DNA of 64,000 nt from Rhodobacteraceae bacterium LNNU 3342 (GTDB lineage: Bacteria > Pseudomonadota > Alphaproteobacteria > Rhodobacterales > Rhodobacteraceae): NCBI GenBank assembly GCA_008711135.1, contig VUAW01000003.1:186001-250000 (forward strand), written 5' to 3'. Position numbers and translations under genes: made by a program. This document shows, piece by piece, positions 36,519-47,940 of this stretch; the stretch's first letter is position 1, and the number at the start of each line of letters is the position of its first letter. The notes beneath the pieces are model-generated. The model saw nothing but the letters and a program-made list of their open reading frames with translations. It did no database searches and was not told the origin of the DNA.

Positions 36519-39500
36519 TCAAGATGTGGTGGCCCGCGCCAGCGCCGACGCAACGAGGCCATGCGGCAGCGTCATAAGTTTCGCCGCCCGCGTCCAGAGG
36601 ATCGCCGTCTCGATCTGCCGGTCAGGATAGATCTGCGCCAGGGCTGCGGCATAGGCGCCCATCTGGCGCAGGATGCCTTCGGGCACCTGTTCCGGGCCTG
36701 CGGGCAGGGTCGCGTTCGACTTGTAATCGACCGCGAGCACCCGGTCCGGCCCCACGATCAGCCGGTCGATCGTGCCCAGCAGCCGCTGGCCGGCAATGTC
36801 GGCGGTGATGTCCACCTCTGCCAGCGCGTCCCCGGCGAACAGGAATGCCAGATCGGGCGCGCCAAGAACCGCCTGCGCTTCCGCAAGCAGCGGCGCAAGG
36901 TCCTCCTCGATCAGCCCATCCTCGGCCGCGGCAAGCAAGTCGCGGGCCATCGCGGGCCAGGATGGCTGCCGGTACAACGGCAGATGTTCCAGAAGCAGGT
37001 GAAGCTGCCGGCCCCGGCGCCTGGCGCTTTCCTCGTCCAGCCCCTCGGCCCCGCCCAGCGCCTTGGCGCCCCCGAGATCTGACGGGGACAGCGGCTTGGG
37101 CGGTTCGACCGCCGCGGGGGCATGGTCGCGAAGCCAGCCGGGCAGGATGAACGCGCCAGCCTGCGCCACCTCGGCGCGGCAGGTGGGCTCTGGCCAGGCG
37201 CCGTGGAACAGGCGGCGCATCTGCCCGTCCTCGGGGTCGGGCATAGGCAGGGTTTCGGCACCTGCGTGGTTCATGCCGTCGGCGACCATGGCATACCAGC
37301 AATCGCCACCCGGCTTCACCTCGCCCGCGGCGCAGATGATCAGCCAGCTTTGCGCCCGGGTCAGCGCCACGTATAGCAGGCGCAGGTTTTCTTCGGCTTC
37401 CTCTGCGCGCTGACGCTCGCGCGCCTCGGCCAGTTCCGGGGGGCAGATATCGGCCGGCATCCGCCAGGTCAGCGTACCATTGGCCAGGGGCAGCAGTTCG
37501 CCCCCCTGCCGGGGACGCCGATCCGCGGTGTCAGGAAGGATGACGACAGGTGCCTCCAGCCCCTTGGCACCATGCACCGTCATCACCCGGATGCGGTTGC
37601 CCGCGCTGTCCATCTGGCGCTTGATCTCGACCTCCTCGGTCGCAAGCCAGGTCAGAAAGCCGGTGAGGCTGGGCACATCCATTCGCTCATAGGCCAGCGC
37701 CTGCGCCAGAAGCGCATCAATCCCGTCCTCGGCCTCGGGCCCCAGCCGGGACAGAAGGCAGCGCCGCCCGTCGTGGCGCGTCAGCACCCGTTCCAGCAGG
37801 TCATAAGGCCGCATGAAGTCGGCGTGGTCGCGCAGGTCGGTCAGGATCTCCATCGTTTCCGGGAATTCATCCGCGCGGCGGCGCAGCGCCTCCCACAGCC
37901 AGCCTTTGCGGCCCTGCGCAAGGTCGTAAAGCTGCGCCTCAGTCCAGCCGAACAGCGGCGATTTCAGGGCGGCGGCCAGTGACAGCTCATCCTCAGACGT
38001 GGCAAGGAAGGAAAGCAGCGCCTGCAGGTCCCGCACGGCCAGTTCACCACCCAGCTTCAGCCGGTCGGCACCGGCGATGGCGAGCCCTTCGGACTTGCAG
38101 GCGCGGATGATCTCGTGGAACAGGTCCGACCGGCGCTGCACAAGGATCAGCACGTCGCCCTCGGTCACCGGGCGCGGGCCCCTTTCCGTCGGGATCTGGG
38201 TGCCGCTGTCGATCATGCGGCGGATTTCCCGCGCGACTTGGCGGGCAAGACGGGCGTTGTGATGTTCCGCGGGCAGGATGTCCACGGGGTCGAACCAGTC
38301 CCGGTCCTCGGGCTTGTCAGCCGGGGGAACCACCGGCCAAAGATCGACACGCCCCGGCATTTCGTCGCGGAAGGCAATGTGCCGCACCTCGCCACCCAGA
38401 CCCGCGCTTGCCCGTGCCTCCAGCGTCAGGTCCACGAGCCGCAGCACCGCGGGTGAAGACCGGAACGAATATTCCAGCGTCAGGTTCGCCAGCGGCACGT
38501 CCACCGCCTGCAGCCTTGCGCCGAAATGATCGCGCATCCGGTCAAAGGCGCGCAGGTCCGCCCCTTGGAAGGAATAGATCGACTGCTTCTTGTCGCCCAC
38601 GACGAAGATCGTGCGGCCTTCGGTGCGCGCCCCCTGCCCGGCCGTGAATTCCTGCGCCAGCAGTTCGATCACGCGCCACTGGCCGGGGCTGGTGTCCTGC
38701 GCCTCGTCCACAAGGATGTGGTCCACGCCGCCGTCCAGCCGGAACAGCACCCATTGCGCGACCGAGGGATCGGTCAGCAGCGCCACAGCCCGGTGGATCA
38801 GGTCATCAAAGTCAAGCCAGCCCCGCCGGGCCTTGCGTGCCGCGTATTCCGGCAGAAAGGCCGCGGCAAAGCGGTGCATGGCGCAGGTCCGTTCAGCAGC
38901 CAGCAGCGCAATGCGTTTTGGCCGCGCGCTTTCCACCCGCCGCATGAGGTTTTCCACCTGCTCGATCCGGTGGCCCAGCGCGGCACGGGTGGCCTTGGTC
39001 GGAAACTTGCCCAGCTTGGCGCCATAGGGTTCCTTGGCAGAGGATCCGTAAAGGAAGTGGCATTCCATCTCTTCCAGAAGGGCCATGCGCGGGGCATCGC
39101 GGACGGCGGCCAACCGGTTGCCGGCCTTTGCGTCGGTGCTGCTGCCCGCCTTCAGCACGGGGATGAGTTCATCCAGCAGCGCATCTTCATTGCCCAGGAA
39201 AACCTCGGCCTGAAGCTGCGCCACGTCGTAATCACCCTGCAGGCCGAACAGCGCCCGCGCACCCGCAATGTCCAGCGGCTCTGTCAAAGCGGCACGGCGC
39301 GCGGCGAGTTCCGCCGTCAGCGCCGTCAGGCTTTCGCCGGTGTAGTACCGAGCGACCGCGTCCAGCAGGGCGGGCGCGGTTTCCGCCAGATGCTCGACGA
39401 TTTCGTCCCGCAGGAGCGTGGCGGCTCGGTCGTCCATCTCGGTGAACTGCGGCGTCACCCCGGCTTCAAGCGGGAAACGCCGCAGCAGCGAGGCGCAGAA

Positions 39501-39878
39501 GGAATGGATCGTCTGGATCTTGAGCCCGCCGGGCGTTTCGATCGCGCGGGCAAACAGCCGCCGCGCCTGCCGCAGCACCTCGCCGCCTGCGCGGCTGTCG
39601 GCGCCCAGTTCCGCCAGCGCGGCGCGGAGCGCGTCATCCTCCAGCATCGCCCATTCGCCCAGGCGGCGGAACAGGCGGTTCTGCATCTCGTTGGCCGCGG
39701 CCTTCGTGTAGGTCAGGCACAGGATGCGCTGCGGCTGCACCCCGCTCAGCAGTAGGCGGGCCACGCGGTCGGTGAGCACCCGGGTCTTGCCCGACCCGGC
39801 ATTGGCCGAAAGCCAGGTGGAACCGGCGGGATCGGCGGCCTGAACCTGGCGTTCGCTGGCGGCATTGCGGGCCATCAT
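36519..39878 (-). CDS. addA: Double-strand break repair helicase-nuclease AddA
   Basis: 1119 residues from the ATG at 39878, which overlaps the addB stop as ATGA. UvrD-type helicase motifs: SANAGSGKTRVLTDRV (Walker A, about residues 23-38), ILCLTYTKAAANEMQNR, the Walker B region HILVDEAQDTSPGQW, FVVGDKKQSIYSFQGAD, and RVMTVHGAKGLEAPVV. The C-terminal RecB-type nuclease has VLAVDYKSN. With AddB it resects double-strand ends for RecA, replacing RecBCD. Confidence 0.96.
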   Translation of the reverse strand: MMARNAASERQVQAADPAGSTWLSANAGSGKTRVLTDRVARLLLSGVQPQRILCLTYTKAAANEMQNRLFRRLGEWAMLEDDALRAALAELGADSRAGGEVLRQARRLFARAIETPGGLKIQTIHSFCASLLRRFPLEAGVTPQFTEMDDRAATLLRDEIVEHLAETAPALLDAVARYYTGESLTALTAELAARRAALTEPLDIAGARALFGLQGDYDVAQLQAEVFLGNEDALLDELIPVLKAGSSTDAKAGNRLAAVRDAPRMALLEEMECHFLYGSSAKEPYGAKLGKFPTKATRAALGHRIEQVENLMRRVESARPKRIALLAAERTCAMHRFAAAFLPEYAARKARRGWLDFDDLIHRAVALLTDPSVAQWVLFRLDGGVDHILVDEAQDTSPGQWRVIELLAQEFTAGQGARTEGRTIFVVGDKKQSIYSFQGADLRAFDRMRDHFGARLQAVDVPLANLTLEYSFRSSPAVLRLVDLTLEARASAGLGGEVRHIAFRDEMPGRVDLWPVVPPADKPEDRDWFDPVDILPAEHHNARLARQVAREIRRMIDSGTQIPTERGPRPVTEGDVLILVQRRSDLFHEIIRACKSEGLAIAGADRLKLGGELAVRDLQALLSFLATSEDELSLAAALKSPLFGWTEAQLYDLAQGRKGWLWEALRRRADEFPETMEILTDLRDHADFMRPYDLLERVLTRHDGRRCLLSRLGPEAEDGIDALLAQALAYERMDVPSLTGFLTWLATEEVEIKRQMDSAGNRIRVMTVHGAKGLEAPVVILPDTADRRPRQGGELLPLANGTLTWRMPADICPPELAEARERQRAEEAEENLRLLYVALTRAQSWLIICAAGEVKPGGDCWYAMVADGMNHAGAETLPMPDPEDGQMRRLFHGAWPEPTCRAEVAQAGAFILPGWLRDHAPAAVEPPKPLSPSDLGGAKALGGAEGLDEESARRRGRQLHLLLEHLPLYRQPSWPAMARDLLAAAEDGLIEEDLAPLLAEAQAVLGAPDLAFLFAGDALAEVDITADIAGQRLLGTIDRLIVGPDRVLAVDYKSNATLPAGPEQVPEGILRQMGAYAAALAQIYPDRQIETAILWTRAAKLMTLPHGLVASALARATTS

Positions 39879-42784
39879 CCGACATCCTCCGGGTTGGGCA
39901 GGTCGGTCATCTCCCACTCTCCATAGCGGGCGAGGTGGTCATAGTCGCCTGTGATGCGGTCCTCGAACACGGCGCGGCGGGCGGCAAAGCCCTGTTCGGG
40001 GCTCATGTAGGCGCCGATGAGCTTGTGAAGCTCGTCCCACGTGGCGCGGGTCAGGTCCTCGGTGATCAGGGTGGTTTCCTCCTTGGGCGAGGATCCGACG
40101 CCGATATAGGTGATTGTCTGCACCGGGCGCGGGCCCAGCTTGGAAAAGGCGCCGCGTTCGGCCATCGCGGCTTCCAGCAGAAGCTGCTTGTCGAAATGCT
40201 TCTGCTGTTTTTCCGTCGGTGGCGTGCCGCTCTTGTAGTCAAGGATGTGCAGGCTGCCGTCGGGCAATTCGTCGATCCGGTCGGGCTTGGCCGTCAGGCG
40301 GAAGCCGAAACGGTCAAGCGCCACGCCGCCTTTGTCCTCGATCAGCACGGACTGACCCGGGCGGCCGGCTTCTTGTGCCAGAAACCAGTCCGCCACACGG
40401 ACAATCCGCGCGAACCACAGCCGCTGCGCCGCGGGCCAGGGCACATCGTCCGCCAGAACCTGTTCGGCAAGCGTCAGCAGGCGCGTGCGGTCGCCCTTGC
40501 CGGTGCCGATGAATTCCTCGAACACGCGGTGCAGGACCGACCCGCGCAGCAGCGCGTCCGGCGTGGGGCGCAACGGCTGCAGCGGCTTCAGCCGCAGCAC
40601 ATATCGTGCGTAAACCGCATAGGGGTCGCGGATCAGCCGCGAAATCGCCGTCACCGGCAGTTCCTTTGGGCGCGCGTCTATCGGTGGGCGGGGCGCTGGG
40701 CGTGGTGCCGGGGGCTGGGGGATATAGTCGCTTTCCCACGCAGCGGCGAGGTCCAGTAGCCGCTGGCCGCGGACGCGCATCGCCTCCAATGCCGCCCTGC
40801 CGCCCTGCGGGCCCAGCCCGCCCAGCAGGTTCACCATCCGATTCAGCCAGCGCGACGGTACGGTTTCCGCCTCGGAGTCCCGGATGGCGCGGGTCAGCAC
40901 CACCTCGGGCGCGGCGATCGCCTGCTGGAAGTCATGGGCCGACAGGCCGATCCGCCGTTCCGGCAACAAAAGCCCCGTGTCGTGCCGCATCTGCCGGTTC
41001 AGCCACGGGTCCGGCGCAGGCGCCTGCGGCCAGATCCCGTCGTTGAGGCCGCCAAGGATCACCAGATCCGCCCCCTGCACCCGTGCTTCCAGTGTTCCCC
41101 AGATCATGATGCGGGGATGGACCTGCGGCGCCTCGCGCACCTCGGCCCCTTGCAGCACCGCGGTGAACAGGTCGTTGTAATCGGAAGGCGAGAACGGCCC
41201 GCCATGTGGCGCCTCTCGCTGCAGGTCCTCTACCACCCGCCGCGCACTCTGCCCTGCTTCCTTGAGCCACAGTTCGCCGGTACCGCCAGTGGGACCACCG
41301 GCCAAGGCTTCGGCCAAGGCCAGATGATGGGCGACGTGGTCGGCAAGCGGGCGGGTGCCTACCTCTGGCCCGTCCAGAAGCCCTGCCAGCCATTCCGCCC
41401 AAGCCAGCAGCGCGGGATCGCCCTTGGTCCCGGCCCATGTGACGATATCGGCCCCCGTCGGGAAGGCCGGCCCCTTCCGCCGCAGCTTCAACTCAAGGTC
41501 CCGCGTCCACAACAGGTGCGGGCCCCGGTCGGCTCCGGAATGGGTCAGCGGGTGCTTGAGCAGCGTCAGCAAGGCTTCAGCCGTCAGGCGTTCCCCGAAC
41601 AGCGCCGCGACATGGCGCAGGAACCGCCCCGGCGCCGAAAGCGCCAGCGGGCGGCCCGCGCTATCATCGGGCACGATGCCCCAGCGGTCCAGCGCTGCCG
41701 TCACCTGCCGGGTCAACATCCGGTCGGGGGTGATGAGCGCGGCACGCTCTCCCGCCTCGGCGGCTTCGCGCAGGCGGATGGCGATCGCCATCGCCTCGGC
41801 GCGGGGGGATGGAGCCTCCACCAGCGACATCCGCCGGGTGGCACGGTCCAGCCCCTCCAGGTGCCGCCCCTCGACCATCCACTGGTCGGTAACGGGCGCG
41901 GGGCGCAGGGCGAGCGAGATCAGCCGGTTACGCTCCGGGCACGGCGCCTCCACCCCATCCCAGGGCAGGACGTCGCCGGGTTCCAGCCCCATCACCTGCA
42001 TCATCCGGTAAAAGCGGTACTGGGGATGATCCTCAGCCGTCAGCGCATCACCAAGGCTGCCCCAGACCGGAGCCGGCATGTCGAAATCGAACCCTGGCAG
42101 CAGGATCGCCCCCTGCGGCAAGCGCGCCACCGCCTGCATCAGCAGCATCGTTGTACCACGCGAGCCGGTCGAACCCGCGATAATGATAGGATGCTGGGGC
42201 GGCGCGTCCTCCCACTTCGCGGCAAGGCGTTCGACCACAAGACGCTGGCGCGCCTCGGCATCCGGCGCCTCTGTCTGGCTGAAAAACCGGGTGACGATGC
42301 GGATGAAGGTCAGGCTGCGTTCCCAGTGGCGGGAATGGTTGGAAAGGTCCAGCGCCTCGATCCGGTCAGGGGGCACGCCTTCGCCCTGCATTTCGTCCAT
42401 CAGGGCGGCAAGGCTGTCGGCAAGGTCATAGATCGCGGCCCGGGGCGCCAGGTCGGGCTGTTGGTCCAGCAGCCGCGACACAAGCTGCGCCAGTTCCAGC
42501 CGCCGCCGCAGCGGTGGGACCGGAGGCGGCAGGTCGGCCATCGACACCTCACGTCCGAGGTCGGTGACCAGCCGCACCCGCGGCAGAAGCCGCGCGCCCT
42601 GGGCCGCGAACAGGTCGCGCACCCGGCGCTGCATCCGGCGGGTGTTCACGAACAGCTCGGCCCGGGCCATATCCTCGGGCGGGCGGCCCTCCATCCGGGC
42701 GCAGAACCCGCGGACAAGGCCCAGCGGGAAGTCAGCCCCCGCCGGCAGGGCAAAAAGACGTGCGCGATCGCTTGGCTCAAACAT
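39875..42784 (-). CDS. addB: Double-strand break repair protein AddB (alphaproteobacterial type)
   Basis: 969 residues. The N-terminal helicase-like part has a degenerate nucleotide loop, IIAGSTGSRGTTMLLMQAV, in which the Walker A Lys is replaced by Arg, so ATP hydrolysis by this subunit is doubtful. The C-terminal nuclease has GSLHILDYKSGTPPTEKQ (Asp and Lys of the catalytic core), then QLLLEAAM. The cysteines that form the iron-sulfur cluster in firmicute AddB are not seen. It overlaps the nucleotidyltransferase gene by eight bases and addA by four. Confidence 0.93.
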   Translation of the reverse strand: MFEPSDRARLFALPAGADFPLGLVRGFCARMEGRPPEDMARAELFVNTRRMQRRVRDLFAAQGARLLPRVRLVTDLGREVSMADLPPPVPPLRRRLELAQLVSRLLDQQPDLAPRAAIYDLADSLAALMDEMQGEGVPPDRIEALDLSNHSRHWERSLTFIRIVTRFFSQTEAPDAEARQRLVVERLAAKWEDAPPQHPIIIAGSTGSRGTTMLLMQAVARLPQGAILLPGFDFDMPAPVWGSLGDALTAEDHPQYRFYRMMQVMGLEPGDVLPWDGVEAPCPERNRLISLALRPAPVTDQWMVEGRHLEGLDRATRRMSLVEAPSPRAEAMAIAIRLREAAEAGERAALITPDRMLTRQVTAALDRWGIVPDDSAGRPLALSAPGRFLRHVAALFGERLTAEALLTLLKHPLTHSGADRGPHLLWTRDLELKLRRKGPAFPTGADIVTWAGTKGDPALLAWAEWLAGLLDGPEVGTRPLADHVAHHLALAEALAGGPTGGTGELWLKEAGQSARRVVEDLQREAPHGGPFSPSDYNDLFTAVLQGAEVREAPQVHPRIMIWGTLEARVQGADLVILGGLNDGIWPQAPAPDPWLNRQMRHDTGLLLPERRIGLSAHDFQQAIAAPEVVLTRAIRDSEAETVPSRWLNRMVNLLGGLGPQGGRAALEAMRVRGQRLLDLAAAWESDYIPQPPAPRPAPRPPIDARPKELPVTAISRLIRDPYAVYARYVLRLKPLQPLRPTPDALLRGSVLHRVFEEFIGTGKGDRTRLLTLAEQVLADDVPWPAAQRLWFARIVRVADWFLAQEAGRPGQSVLIEDKGGVALDRFGFRLTAKPDRIDELPDGSLHILDYKSGTPPTEKQQKHFDKQLLLEAAMAERGAFSKLGPRPVQTITYIGVGSSPKEETTLITEDLTRATWDELHKLIGAYMSPEQGFAARRAVFEDRITGDYDHLARYGEWEMTDLPNPEDVG

Positions 42785-43448
42785 CGTCGTTCAGCATCCG
42801 TTCGGCCTCGGCAATGCCTTCGGGATGGCCCACGTCGCACCAGCGGCCGGTGTGGATCGTGCCGTACAGCCGTCCCTGCGCCAGCATAGCATCCCAAACG
42901 CGGTTGAGGGAGAAAGCCTCCTCCTCAATTCCATCCAGCCCTTCCGGGCGGATGATCTGGGCGCCTGTATAGATCAGCGGCCCGCCCCGGGTGACCCGCC
43001 CGTCCGCGCCGATGGAAAAATCCCCGCCACGGGTATAGCCGCAGGCATCTTCAGGCCGCACCAGCAGCAGAAGCGCGCCCATTCCGTCCCGCCAGCCTGC
43101 GCGCAGCGTGTCAAACGGGTTCGCACCAGTCCAGACGGCGTCCGAGTTCAGGGTAAAGACCGGCCCCGGCCCAAGCTGCGGCAGCGCCTTGCGCAGCCCG
43201 CCCCCGGTTTCAAGGATCTGCGGCCATTCCAGCGACAGCGCCACGTCGCGCCCCGCCAGATGCGCCGCAAGCTGTTCGTGCCGGTAATGCAGGTTGACCA
43301 CCTTGCGCGGCACATCCGCCGCCAGATCCAGCGCATGGTCGATCAGCGGCTTGCCCGCGACCTCGATCAGCGGCTTGGGCCGGTCGGCGGTCAGGGCCCC
43401 CATCCGGGTGCCGAAGCCCGCGGCAAAGATCATCACCGCGTCTGGCAT
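42777..43448 (-). CDS. murU: Sugar-1-phosphate nucleotidyltransferase, MurU-like
   Basis: 223 residues. Nucleotidyltransferase signature AAGFGTRMGALTADRPKPLI (residues 9-28, with the catalytic Arg and the sugar-binding Lys), LETGGGLRKALPQLG, and FTLNSDAVW holding the metal Asp. Size and motifs match MurU, which makes UDP-MurNAc from MurNAc-1-phosphate in cell-wall recycling. The gene overlaps the kinase gene upstream, which would supply MurNAc-1-phosphate, so the pair looks like an amgK-murU salvage route. Other sugar substrates are possible. Confidence 0.72.
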   Translation of the reverse strand: MPDAVMIFAAGFGTRMGALTADRPKPLIEVAGKPLIDHALDLAADVPRKVVNLHYRHEQLAAHLAGRDVALSLEWPQILETGGGLRKALPQLGPGPVFTLNSDAVWTGANPFDTLRAGWRDGMGALLLLVRPEDACGYTRGGDFSIGADGRVTRGGPLIYTGAQIIRPEGLDGIEEEAFSLNRVWDAMLAQGRLYGTIHTGRWCDVGHPEGIAEAERMLNDDV

Positions 43449-44443
43449 CGGTCGCGGATCCGCTGCTGGCGTTCAGGCGTGGGTTCGGGAAGCAGCCGCA
43501 AGACCTCCTCCCGCAGGGAGGCAAGCGCGGGATGGGCAAGGTCGCGCATCAGGTGGCCCCAGACGCGCGGCATCAGGGCGATGTACTGCGGCTTGCCGTC
43601 CCGCAGCCAGAGCCGTGCAAAGACACCCAAGATGCGCAGGTTCCGCTGCGCCGCCAATGCCGCGCAGGCGGTGCCGAATTCCGCCACCGGCTGGTTCAGC
43701 GCCCGCGCCAATCGGTCCTGCATCGCCTGCGCCAAGTCCTGCGGCACGTCGCGGCGCGCATCTTCGGTCAGTGAAATCAGGTCATAGGCCGGGTGACCCC
43801 GCATCGCGCATTGGAAATCAAGCAGCCCCACGCGGGCAAGGCCTTCACGTTCCGGTAGCCAAATCAGGTTTTCAGCATGGTAATCCCGCAGGATCAGCCC
43901 TTCGTGATCAGGGGCATGCGCCTTCAGCGTCTGAGCTACCAATTCGGCAAAGGCTGCCCGATCGGTATCCTGACCAGTTGCGGCGGGCAGGTACCAATCC
44001 ACCGCCAGCGCGGCAAGATCCGCCATCAGCGGGACGTCATAGGCATCCAGCCCCTCGGGCGCAGGATGGCGCTGCAGTTCGGCGATCACATCGACGGCGG
44101 CGGCATAGACTGGTGTCTCCTGCGCGGGCTCGCGGGTCAGCAGCCGTGCGTAGAGGTCGTCGCCCAGATCTTCGAGCAGCAGGAAGCCGCGATCTTCATT
44201 CTCTGCCATGATGGCAGGTGCCGACAGGCCCAGCCCCTGCAGGTGCCGCGCGATGGCGGTAAAGGGACGCACGTCTTCCCCTGTCGCGGGATCGGCATCC
44301 ATCAGCACCGCCCGTTCACCAGAAGGCGAAACCAGGCGTTCGTACTTCCGGGGGGAGGCATCGCCTGCCAATGGGCTGCGGGCTGCGTCGCCCCAGCCGG
44401 CGGCTGCAAGAAAGGCGCGCGACAGCGCAGGCCGGTCAGTCAA
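43433..44443 (-). CDS. amgK: Anomeric sugar kinase, AmgK-like phosphotransferase
   Basis: 336 residues of the aminoglycoside-phosphotransferase fold. Motifs: GDASPRKYERLVSPSGE (nucleotide loop), FLLLEDLGDDLYARLL, the catalytic LILRDYHAENLIWLPE with Asp and Asn, and VGLLDFQCAMRGHPAYDL with the metal Asp. This is the pattern of AmgK, which phosphorylates MurNAc and GlcNAc at C1. It overlaps murU-like by 16 bases and tsaE by eight, so the three are translated together. The tsaE-amgK-murU order is also found in Pseudomonas-type salvage loci as I recall. Confidence 0.75.
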   Translation of the reverse strand: MTDRPALSRAFLAAAGWGDAARSPLAGDASPRKYERLVSPSGERAVLMDADPATGEDVRPFTAIARHLQGLGLSAPAIMAENEDRGFLLLEDLGDDLYARLLTREPAQETPVYAAAVDVIAELQRHPAPEGLDAYDVPLMADLAALAVDWYLPAATGQDTDRAAFAELVAQTLKAHAPDHEGLILRDYHAENLIWLPEREGLARVGLLDFQCAMRGHPAYDLISLTEDARRDVPQDLAQAMQDRLARALNQPVAEFGTACAALAAQRNLRILGVFARLWLRDGKPQYIALMPRVWGHLMRDLAHPALASLREEVLRLLPEPTPERQQRIRDRCQTR

Positions 44444-44918
44444 GGTCAGTCTCCGGGAACAGGGTGGAAAGACGCGGCACCCAGGGCGCCGGCGCCATGA
44501 CCGTCAGGATGCGCCCTTCACCCTGAAGGGCAAATTGAAGGCGCAAGGCGGAACGGGGACAGGCGCTGCCCAGACGTTCGGGCCATTCGATCAGGCAAAG
44601 CGCGTTCAGCAGCGCGTCGTCGAGCCCAAGCTCCAGCGCCTCGTCCGGATGGGTGAGGCGGTAAAGGTCGGCATGCCAGATCTCGGGTGCCTCTCCATAG
44701 GTCTGGACCAGGGTAAAGGTGGGCGAGGGAACCTCTTGATCCTGCCCCAGACGGGCCCGGATCAGGGCGCGCGCGAAGTGGCTTTTGCCTGCGCCGATCG
44801 GCCCGTCCAACAGCAGCACGTCGCCGGCGCCAAGATGCGGGGCCATCCGCGCGGCCAGGGCATCGGTGGCTGCCGGATCGGGCAGAGTCAGGACAAGGCG
44901 GGCGGCGGCATCGGTCAT
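44436..44918 (-). CDS. tsaE: tRNA t6A biosynthesis ATPase TsaE
   Basis: 160 residues. Walker A LDGPIGAGKSHFARALIRA (about residues 38-56), switch-like region VPSPTFTLVQTY and the ADLYRL segment with CLIEWPERLG, all diagnostic. TsaE works with TsaB and TsaD to put threonylcarbamoyl on adenosine 37 of tRNAs that read ANN codons. tsaD is at 54010; tsaB is not in the window. Confidence 0.94.
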   Translation of the reverse strand: MTDAAARLVLTLPDPAATDALAARMAPHLGAGDVLLLDGPIGAGKSHFARALIRARLGQDQEVPSPTFTLVQTYGEAPEIWHADLYRLTHPDEALELGLDDALLNALCLIEWPERLGSACPRSALRLQFALQGEGRILTVMAPAPWVPRLSTLFPETDLD

Positions 44919-44961: not shown

Positions 44962-46506
44962 TCAGGCCGAGGCGCCTACCAGCCCCAGATCACGCAGCCC
45001 CGGCGCAGTCGCAGGGCGGAAGCCGATCATCAGTCCCCCGCCCACAAGCGGCGCCAGCCGGCAGGTAAGGGCGCGGCCGTCGCACATGGTGACGCTGCCC
45101 GACCAGTCTGCGCGGGCGCTGATCCGGCGGGGAAGTTCCGCCCAGACCGGGTCGGGGCGGCAGGCGTCCTGCCACTGGCGCAGGACGGCGGGTAGCCCCA
45201 CCTCGCCCAGCGTGGCGGCAGGGTCGCTGTTCCACAGCCGGGCATAGGCGCGGTTCGACATCGTGACTACCCCTGCAGGGGAGAAGACGACAATCGCCTC
45301 CTCCAGCGCGTCAAGCACCGCCTGCCCGGTTTCCAGTTCGGCGCGGAAGCGGCGGGTCAGGGTGATTTCGGCGCTGATATCTTCTACCAGGAAGGCCACG
45401 GCGCCATCCGCATGGGGGCGACCAGAAACGCGGTAGGTCTGGCCGCTGGGCAGCATCCAGGTTTCTTCATAGTTGCCCGGGGTGCCATGCTCCATCTCGG
45501 TGAACTGCTGGCGCCAGCTTTTATAGTCGCGCGGTTCTGGCAGCATCTGCCGGTCCCGCAGTTGGTCAAGGAATGCGGCCAGCGTTGGGCGGGCCGAAAG
45601 AAACTCCGCCCCCAGCGAGGTGAGGTCGGTCAGGGCAGGATTGAACAGCTGCAGCCGACGCTGACGGTCAAAGATGGCGAGACCCACGGGCAGATGCGCG
45701 AAGGTCTTGCCGAGGGTCTGCATGAAGCTGCGGTGGGCGCTTTCGGCCTGTACCGTCGCATCGGCGGGCATGGCGAAGAACAGCCTGTCCTGGTCAAGCG
45801 CGATGCAGTGGCAGTCGTACCAGCCCTGCTTCTCACCGCCGGGGTTGGTCAACTGCAGCCGCTGCGCGCTTCCGGTCCGGCGGCGTTCGGGGGCAAAAAG
45901 CACCGGCAGCGGCCAGCGCAGCGCCTCTCCGCGGCGGGTGGCCTGCACAAGATAGGCACGGTTCGCCCAGATCACGGAACCCTCCCCATCCTCGCGCCAG
46001 GCAAGAATCGGCGCATGTTCCATCGTTGCCCGCAGTGTCACCAGTTCCTCGGTCGTGGCGCGATAGCTCATGGCATCAAGGGTGACGACCTGCCCGTCGG
46101 CTTCGGCGTCCAAGAGCGTGACGCGCACCAGCCCGTCACGCCATTCAGCCAGCAGGTCAAGCCGGTCTGCCCCCTTGCCATTGCATGTCAGCGGCCCGCT
46201 GTCCTTCAGGGCTGCAAGGCGGGCGCCGATATCGGGAAATTGTGGCGCAAGATAGGCGACAAGTTGCGCCCAAGGCGTGCCCTCGACGGTGGAGGCCGCA
46301 AGCAGCGCCCGCGCCGGCGCCGTCGCGTCGACCAGCCTTTCGCCGTCGAAAAGAAAGACGGTGTCATCCTCCGCAGCATCGAAAAGCCCTGATTCGGCCG
46401 GACGGCCGCGGCCCAGCAACAGGTAAAGCGCTACCGTCGCCACCAAGGCCGATCCCATCGACGTACCGATCAGCACGAGGGCAAGCGTCAATCCATCCTG
46501 CGGCAT
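44962..46506 (-). CDS. divL: PAS-domain protein, DivL-like regulator without a kinase domain
   Basis: 514 residues from the ATG at 46506 (CAGGA eight bases upstream); a TTG at 46524 and an ATG at 46515 are in frame. One membrane helix at about residues 8-32, then three PAS-like units: VFLFDGERLVDATAPARALL, the middle AHLPVGLAIFDRQRRLQLFN and the last ALEEAIVVFSPAGVVTMSN. A histidine or tyrosine phospho-acceptor helix and an ATPase domain are absent, unlike Caulobacter DivL. In Rhodobacter capsulatus a PAS protein called DivL tunes CtrA activity and gene transfer agent production, and this gene's place beside regB supports orthology. A perfect CtrA-type site lies 46-62 bases upstream. Confidence 0.68.
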   Translation of the reverse strand: MPQDGLTLALVLIGTSMGSALVATVALYLLLGRGRPAESGLFDAAEDDTVFLFDGERLVDATAPARALLAASTVEGTPWAQLVAYLAPQFPDIGARLAALKDSGPLTCNGKGADRLDLLAEWRDGLVRVTLLDAEADGQVVTLDAMSYRATTEELVTLRATMEHAPILAWREDGEGSVIWANRAYLVQATRRGEALRWPLPVLFAPERRRTGSAQRLQLTNPGGEKQGWYDCHCIALDQDRLFFAMPADATVQAESAHRSFMQTLGKTFAHLPVGLAIFDRQRRLQLFNPALTDLTSLGAEFLSARPTLAAFLDQLRDRQMLPEPRDYKSWRQQFTEMEHGTPGNYEETWMLPSGQTYRVSGRPHADGAVAFLVEDISAEITLTRRFRAELETGQAVLDALEEAIVVFSPAGVVTMSNRAYARLWNSDPAATLGEVGLPAVLRQWQDACRPDPVWAELPRRISARADWSGSVTMCDGRALTCRLAPLVGGGLMIGFRPATAPGLRDLGLVGASA

Positions 46507-46550
46507 GCGAGTCATCCTGAGCAAATTTCCGCCGACCGTGGGGAGGATTA

Positions 46551-46567
46551 GTTAATACAACCTTAAC
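46551..46567 (-). promoter_or_regulatory. Perfect CtrA-type palindromic site upstream of divL-like gene
   Basis: GTTAATACAACCTTAAC: G-TTAA-N7-TTAA-C, a full match on both half-sites and on both strands. It lies in the 66 bases between the regB stop and the divL-like start. Another TTAAC follows six bases on (46573-46577), inside the regB stop codon, so a third half-site is present. CtrA consensus TTAA-N7-TTAAC is established for alphaproteobacteria. Confidence 0.65.
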
Positions 46568-46572
46568 GTGTT

Positions 46573-47940
46573 TTAACCGCTTGCAGAAAGCGGTTGATTT
46601 TCTCCTAACGCCTCGGGTTTCGTGGCAATCAGGTCGCAGGGCCAGACCACCTCTACGACCGCGCCGGATCGCGCGGGGCGCTCTGTCTCGTGCAGGAACG
46701 GATCCGCACCGTTGGCAAAGGAAAGCTCTGCCCCGGAACGCTCCAGAAGCGTCTTGGCGATGAACAGGCCCAAGCCCATGCCTTCGTATCCCGGCCGTGC
46801 CGGGTCGTTCTGGGACCGGCGGCGCACGAATGGGTCACCGATCCGGCCGAGAATATGCGGCGGGAAGCCGGGACCGTCATCCACGATCCGCAGCAGGATG
46901 TGGTCCTCGGTCCAGGCCGTATCGATCCAGACATTCGCCCGCGAAAAATCCACGGCATTCTGGATGAGGTTGCGCAGCCCATGCACGATTTCCGGCTTGC
47001 GCAGGATCAGCGGCTGCGCCCGCCCGGCGGATTCATCGATGTGGATCGTCTTGCCGCGGTTGGCATGGGGTTCTGCCGCTTCTCGCAGTATGGCAGACAG
47101 CGGCGCCTGCTGCATGTGCCGATCCGCCTTGCCCGCGCGGCCCATGGATCGCAGGATGTCACGGCAGCGGTCGGTCTGCTGGCGGATCAGTTCGATGTCG
47201 GCACGCAGGTCCGGGTCGTCGATTTCGTCGGCAAGTTCGCTGCTGACCAGCTTGATCGTCGCCAGCGGCGTGCCCAGTTCATGCGCCGCCGCGGCCACCA
47301 CCCCGGCAAGATCGGTCAGCTTCTGTTCCCGCGCCAGCGCCATCTGCGTCGCCAGAAGCGCGTCGCCCATGGAGCGGATCTCGCTTGCGACGCGCAGGGA
47401 ATAGAGGCCTAGGAACACGACCCCGATCACGATGGCCAGCCATGACCCCAGTTCGAAAAGCGCAGGGATGCGCAGAACCTCGCCCGTCACTAGGCGCAGC
47501 GGCACATAGACAAAGGCCAGAAGCGTGACCAGCGCGATCGCCGCCGCCCCCAGCAGCACCGTGCTGCGCGCCCGCAGCGCCGCGGCCGAAATCGTCACCG
47601 GCGCCAGAATCAGCAACGCGAAGGGGTTGTGCAGGCCCCCAGTCAGGTACAGCAGCAGGGCCAGCTGCGACAGGTCGAACAGGAAGGTCAGTGTGGCCTC
47701 GGTTTCCGTCAGGCGCTTGTTCTGGGGAAAGATCGCCACTGCCATCAGGTTGAAGATGACCGATGCGCCCACCGCCAGCACGCAAAGCCCAAGGTCAAGG
47801 TCGATCCCGTAGAAGCGGTAGGCCACCAGAATCGCCGTAAGCTGTCCGGAGATGGCCAGCCACCGCAGCACGATCAGCGTGCGCAGCCGGACCCATTCGG
47901 TTCGAGTGTCGCCGGGAAGAGCTGGGGTGGGTGTCGGCAT
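46573..47940 (-). CDS. regB: Redox sensor histidine kinase RegB/PrrB
   Basis: 455 residues. Six membrane helices in the first 200 residues; between helices lies the ubiquinone-binding GGLHNPF motif (about residues 100-106). H-box AAAAHELGTPLATIKL with the phosphorylated His220, the redox-active Cys259 in QTDRCRDILRSMG, an N-box HGLRNLIQNAVDFS and G-boxes DDGPGF and GMGLGLFIAK. It autophosphorylates under low oxygen and passes phosphate to RegA. It is divergent from senC; regA follows senC. Confidence 0.96.
   Translation of the reverse strand: MPTPTPALPGDTRTEWVRLRTLIVLRWLAISGQLTAILVAYRFYGIDLDLGLCVLAVGASVIFNLMAVAIFPQNKRLTETEATLTFLFDLSQLALLLYLTGGLHNPFALLILAPVTISAAALRARSTVLLGAAAIALVTLLAFVYVPLRLVTGEVLRIPALFELGSWLAIVIGVVFLGLYSLRVASEIRSMGDALLATQMALAREQKLTDLAGVVAAAAHELGTPLATIKLVSSELADEIDDPDLRADIELIRQQTDRCRDILRSMGRAGKADRHMQQAPLSAILREAAEPHANRGKTIHIDESAGRAQPLILRKPEIVHGLRNLIQNAVDFSRANVWIDTAWTEDHILLRIVDDGPGFPPHILGRIGDPFVRRRSQNDPARPGYEGMGLGLFIAKTLLERSGAELSFANGADPFLHETERPARSGAVVEVVWPCDLIATKPEALGENQPLSASG

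Follow-up and report, generated by a model that had tools for sequence, protein, structure and literature searches.

CtrA control of cckA and divL was predicted for this group of the Rhodobacterales by Brilli et al. 2010 (PMC2877005), who noted that it makes feedback and that DivL of the group is without the kinase domain. In D. shibae, divL expression is reduced in the ctrA, cckA, and chpT mutants, and a CtrA site was predicted in the divL promoter (PMC4046655). Expression of divL in R. capsulatus is decreased in ctrA knockouts and mildly increased upon overexpression of ctrA (PMC6363796), while regB remains unchanged upon loss of the phosphorelay genes (PMC7232146). In P. inhibens, divL1 is repressed when either ctrA or cckA is mutated (PMC12363192). 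As to the protein, a statement in PMC9143464 gives R. capsulatus DivL as reported to stimulate the CckA kinase and so the phosphorylation of CtrA. Transcription from the mapped CtrA promoters of R. sphaeroides begins 23-24 nt past the site, and the bases A at -11 and G at -4 do not vary among these promoters (PMC6180460). We describe here how the divL locus of Rhodobacteraceae bacterium LNNU 3342 compares with these systems.

CtrA-type site in the regB-divL gap

Within the window, the whole 64-kb stretch of DNA analysed, the gap between regB and a divL-like gene was found to carry GTTAATACAACCTTAAC at 46551-46567, as read directly from the sequence (Table 1). This is exactly the perfect GTTAA-N7-TTAAC that a preliminary description had claimed there, and its distance of 45-61 bases from the start of the divL-like gene agreed with the ATG at 46506-46504 on the minus strand, which is preceded by AGGA. 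As a TTAA-N7-TTAA(C) element the match is perfect, with both outer G/C bases present, and its near-palindromic nature makes it a full site also on the plus strand. The site sits just past regB, the stop codon of which is 5 bases beyond, and regB and divL lie on the same strand. TTAA-N7-TTAA occurs only once in the whole window, the number expected from shuffles being 0.03. In the whole genome (3.78 Mb), it is present at 14 places, and 10 of these have the TTAAC ending on one or both strands.

Other genomic TTAA-N7-TTAAC sites precede GAF-GGDEF, TadE, glycosyltransferase, and cyclic-nucleotide-binding/transglutaminase-like genes; in relatives, CtrA has been reported to target genes for c-di-GMP and the tad pilus. 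A one-mismatch site, GTAA-N7-TTAAC, was detected about 56-70 bases before the ctrA gene of the same genome, which suggests autoregulation as in relatives.

Table 1. Features of the divL locus in the window
Feature	Position	Strand	Remarks
regB, sensor histidine kinase, upstream of divL	46573..47940	-	NCBIfam RegB equivalog, 739.9 bits (cut-off 570)
Third TTAAC half-site	46573..46577	+	Incidental; overlaps regB stop codon
CtrA-type full site	46551..46567	-	GTTAAGGTTGTATTAAC, 5' to 3' towards divL
Predicted -10 element	46535..46540	-	CACGGT; A at -11 = 46539, T at -7 = 46535
Predicted transcription start (A)	46528	-	23-24 nt after site, 22-nt leader; from R. sphaeroides spacing and purine enrichment
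divL-like gene	44962..46506	-	514 aa, PAS-only; Pfam PAS_7 at 270-381
tsaE, probable second operon gene	44436..44918	-	NCBIfam TsaE; 43 nt after divL
amgK-like	43433-44443	-	NCBIfam best match AmgK, below curated cut-off
murU-like	42777-43448	-	NCBIfam best match MurU, below curated cut-off
addB	39875-42784	-	NCBIfam addB_alphas, above cut-off
addA	36519-39917	-	NCBIfam addA_alphas, above cut-off

The designation PAS-only DivL-like, also taken from the preliminary description, was borne out by both Pfam and NCBIfam searches: the protein carries one PAS region by Pfam, neither HisKA nor HATPase domains were found in it, and it thus has the make-up of the short Rhodobacterales DivL, with a PAS domain and without a histidine kinase domain. 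The R. capsulatus orthologue of the gene is divL (locus L221), with 48% identity and with the order regB-divL-tsaE in both genomes; primers published for gel-shift and qPCR work on rcc00042 map to this same R. capsulatus locus. Beyond regB are senC and regA, transcribed in the opposite direction. Also present in the genome are ctrA, at 432 bits (cut-off 350), and a chpT-type gene, recognised by HPTransfase, the ChpT phosphotransferase domain; among the control genomes, this family gave a match in Caulobacter only. In the D. shibae literature, the name divL is applied to two genes, Dshi_3433 (PAS-only) and Dshi_3346 (PAS-kinase-receiver) (PMC6473078). A passage of that paper treats Dshi_3346 as the counterpart of R. 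capsulatus divL; the gene described here matches the PAS-only Dshi_3433.

A third TTAAC half-site had also been pointed out as part of the arrangement. It is indeed present, separated by 5 bases from the full site and overlapping both the regB stop codon (46573-46575) and one arm of a hairpin, but its role in the switch did not hold: GTTAA was found at the same position in only 1 of 120 related genomes carrying the full site, and a half-site anywhere within 25 bp was seen in 9 of these genomes, versus 5 in the reversed-sequence control. The third half-site was therefore dropped as a component of the switch. The hairpin, at 46573-46597 of the plus strand, is terminator-like, consisting of 10 pairs followed by TTTTCTCC; it overlaps the regB stop codon and runs antisense to regB and divL.

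Conservation of the site before divL

The divL upstream DNA was then compared among 130 Rhodobacteraceae genera, counted by genus without regard to shared ancestry. A perfect TTAA-N7-TTAA was present before divL in 120 of the 130, mostly 50-90 bases from the start, while the flanks around the site were without conservation. Shuffled upstream DNA gave a perfect site in 0.28 genomes on average and in 2 at most, and none of the 130 had it in a control window placed within the upstream coding gene. When up to one mismatch was allowed, 127 of 130 genera had the site, while the control window yielded a match in 1 of 130. Only spacer 7 was conserved, the other spacers between 0 and 20 being found in 0-5 genomes each. 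The site was also detected in 78 of 80 named genomes examined as a further set, some of them shared with the set of 130 genera; R. capsulatus divL was among the genes preceded by it. The motif before divL is far beyond chance. Both half-sites thus proved to be conserved in the alignment of the regB-divL region across relatives, a check that the preliminary description had proposed.

The gene upstream of divL is regB in 125 of the 130 genomes. Since the site is kept in all 5 sampled genomes with another gene at this position, it belongs to divL and not to regB. Among about 25 genomes of other families in the class, which carry the long DivL, a perfect site was found in 2 and a one-mismatch site in 4; the site is therefore largely a feature of the Rhodobacteraceae. 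The low count outside the family (2 of about 25) is in line with the literature, in which this wiring is linked to the short DivL.

Predicted promoter geometry

For detection of promoter elements, the 120 sites were aligned without gaps. Conservation was observed for the eight core bases and the following CC, but neither for the 30 bases before the site nor for the spacer. Downstream of the site, the alignment showed raised conservation of A at positions +13 (62%) and +14 and of T at +17 (54%) and +18. The bases at +13 and +17 take the places of A at -11 and T at -7 in a -10-like element, which is only partly conserved, and purines were enriched about 24-25 bases after the site. This pattern corresponds to that of the mapped R. 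sphaeroides CtrA promoters. The sequence of the window follows the geometry of a CtrA-activated promoter, with the site over the predicted -35, A at -11, and, taking the predicted start of Table 1, G at -4 (46532).

A matrix covering the site and the promoter was built from the other genomes. The score at the site, 27.2, was the highest in the window, the next place reaching 16.2. The score also depended on direction, 27.2 towards divL versus 14.2 in reverse, and the divL direction was preferred in 115 of the 120 genomes. A scan with the generic sigma-70 consensus gave no promoter at the site; a promoter that depends on an activator would be expected to escape such a scan, but the result lends no support by itself. 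CcrM sites (GANTC) in the interval between the site and divL were present in 30 of the 120 genomes, versus 17 and 13 in controls, and took no fixed position; they were not retained as a shared feature.

Probable CtrA control of divL and its alternatives

Taking the site and its promoter geometry together, we consider it highly probable that CtrA binds here to activate a divL promoter. Phosphorylated CtrA would bind the two TTAA half-sites overlapping the -35 region and help RNA polymerase to start at around 46528, so that divL would be transcribed independently of regB, from a promoter after regB. A CtrA promoter placed behind regB would leave the level of regB unaffected, as is seen in the phosphorelay mutants of R. 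capsulatus. DivL would then raise the kinase activity of CckA, leading to more phosphorylation of CtrA. The loop is predicted to be positive, given the reported stimulation of the CckA kinase by DivL in R. capsulatus and the resulting rise in CtrA phosphorylation.

In the preliminary description, feedback from CtrA onto its own modulator had been put forward, together with expression in ctrA mutants as a further check. The conservation of both half-sites supports this feedback, and so do the data for relatives, in which divL falls in the ctrA mutants of all three species, D. shibae, R. capsulatus, and P. inhibens (PMC4046655, PMC6363796, PMC12363192). For LNNU 3342 itself, we infer the binding, the start site, and the sign of the loop.

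The sign of the loop could also be negative or neutral, if CtrA binds but represses divL or only shapes the timing of its expression. CtrA can act as a repressor where its site overlaps the -10 region (PMC6180460), and a negative CtrA loop via Osp is known in R. sphaeroides (PMC9430884). Repression is, however, improbable for divL, as the site lies over the predicted -35 and not the -10, and as divL falls rather than rises in the ctrA mutants of the three relatives. Less probable still is a site for another regulator, such as a Crp/Fnr protein with a TTAAC-like half-site. The Dnr/Fnr site of D. shibae, TTAAC-N4-GTCAA, has one half-site in common with that of CtrA, and binding of FnrL next to divL has been suggested in R. 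capsulatus (PMC7232146); the conserved spacer of N7, however, is the spacing of CtrA, and no TTGA-N6-TCAA Fnr site was found near the 120 CtrA-type sites. The reading of the motif as a chance AT-rich palindrome or a piece of the regB transcription terminator, suggested by its near-palindromic nature and by the adjoining hairpin over the regB stop, is hardly tenable and was already refuted by the conservation footprint, with 120 of 130 genera, a strict spacer of 7, and survival of the site without regB, the terminator being dropped as the hairpin has its T-run on the opposite strand and none in the direction of regB.

Genes behind divL

The promoter of divL may serve further genes. The genes from tsaE to addA (36519-44918, minus strand) overlap one another and lie on the same strand as divL. 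Among the 80 named genomes, tsaE is co-oriented behind divL in 68, with a median gap of 42 nt, and the full order regB-divL-tsaE-amgK-murU-addB is found in 60. The CtrA promoter might thus head a divL-tsaE-amgK-murU-addB-addA operon, by which CtrA would also raise the AddAB recombination machinery, but we regard this extension as tentative and rather doubtful. The primary target is divL itself, because, of the 12 named genomes in which tsaE was not found behind divL, 11 retain the site. If the promoter does feed the genes from tsaE to addA, the CtrA pathway would reach both DNA recombination and cell-wall recycling with one transcript. The operon would also help to explain why addAB are reported to show a codon-adaptation trend in common with the gene transfer agent genes (PMC9765227).

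Comparison with known systems

The idea of the loop is not new. As Brilli et al. 2010 had already written of CtrA control of cckA and divL (PMC2877005), the locus described here represents a further example of a circuit already known, predicted in 2010 and partly measured in relatives, and this example is strongly supported. The 'cluster B' Rhodobacterales of that study share with LNNU 3342 the same regulator, the same kind of site, the PAS-only divL, and the proposed feedback. The difference is in the evidence: the earlier proposal was a position-weight prediction on a limited set of genomes, whereas the present analysis gives a base-level footprint over 130 genera together with the promoter geometry. 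What had been predicted for a limited set thus becomes a near-universal feature of the Rhodobacteraceae, with fixed spacing and a base-level promoter geometry, and it is added here that the site travels with divL independent of regB.

Among the loci with expression data, the divL promoter of D. shibae also has a predicted CtrA site, and divL falls in the ctrA mutant (PMC4046655). For R. capsulatus rcc00042 (PMC6363796), the site was found in the present analysis, and divL likewise falls in the ctrA mutants. These are different species, in which expression was measured. The fla2 CtrA promoters of R. sphaeroides (PMC6180460) resemble the predicted divL promoter in the 23-24 nt between site and start, in the bases A at -11 and G at -4, and in the short leader, but they serve flagellar genes and some of their sites have a spacer of 6. 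The CtrA-osp-CckA loop of R. sphaeroides (PMC9430884) is alike in that CtrA activates the gene for a modulator of CckA through a site some 54 bp upstream of the start codon. The two loops differ in sign: Osp inhibits CckA and makes a negative loop, while DivL, which is reported to stimulate CckA, would make a positive one.
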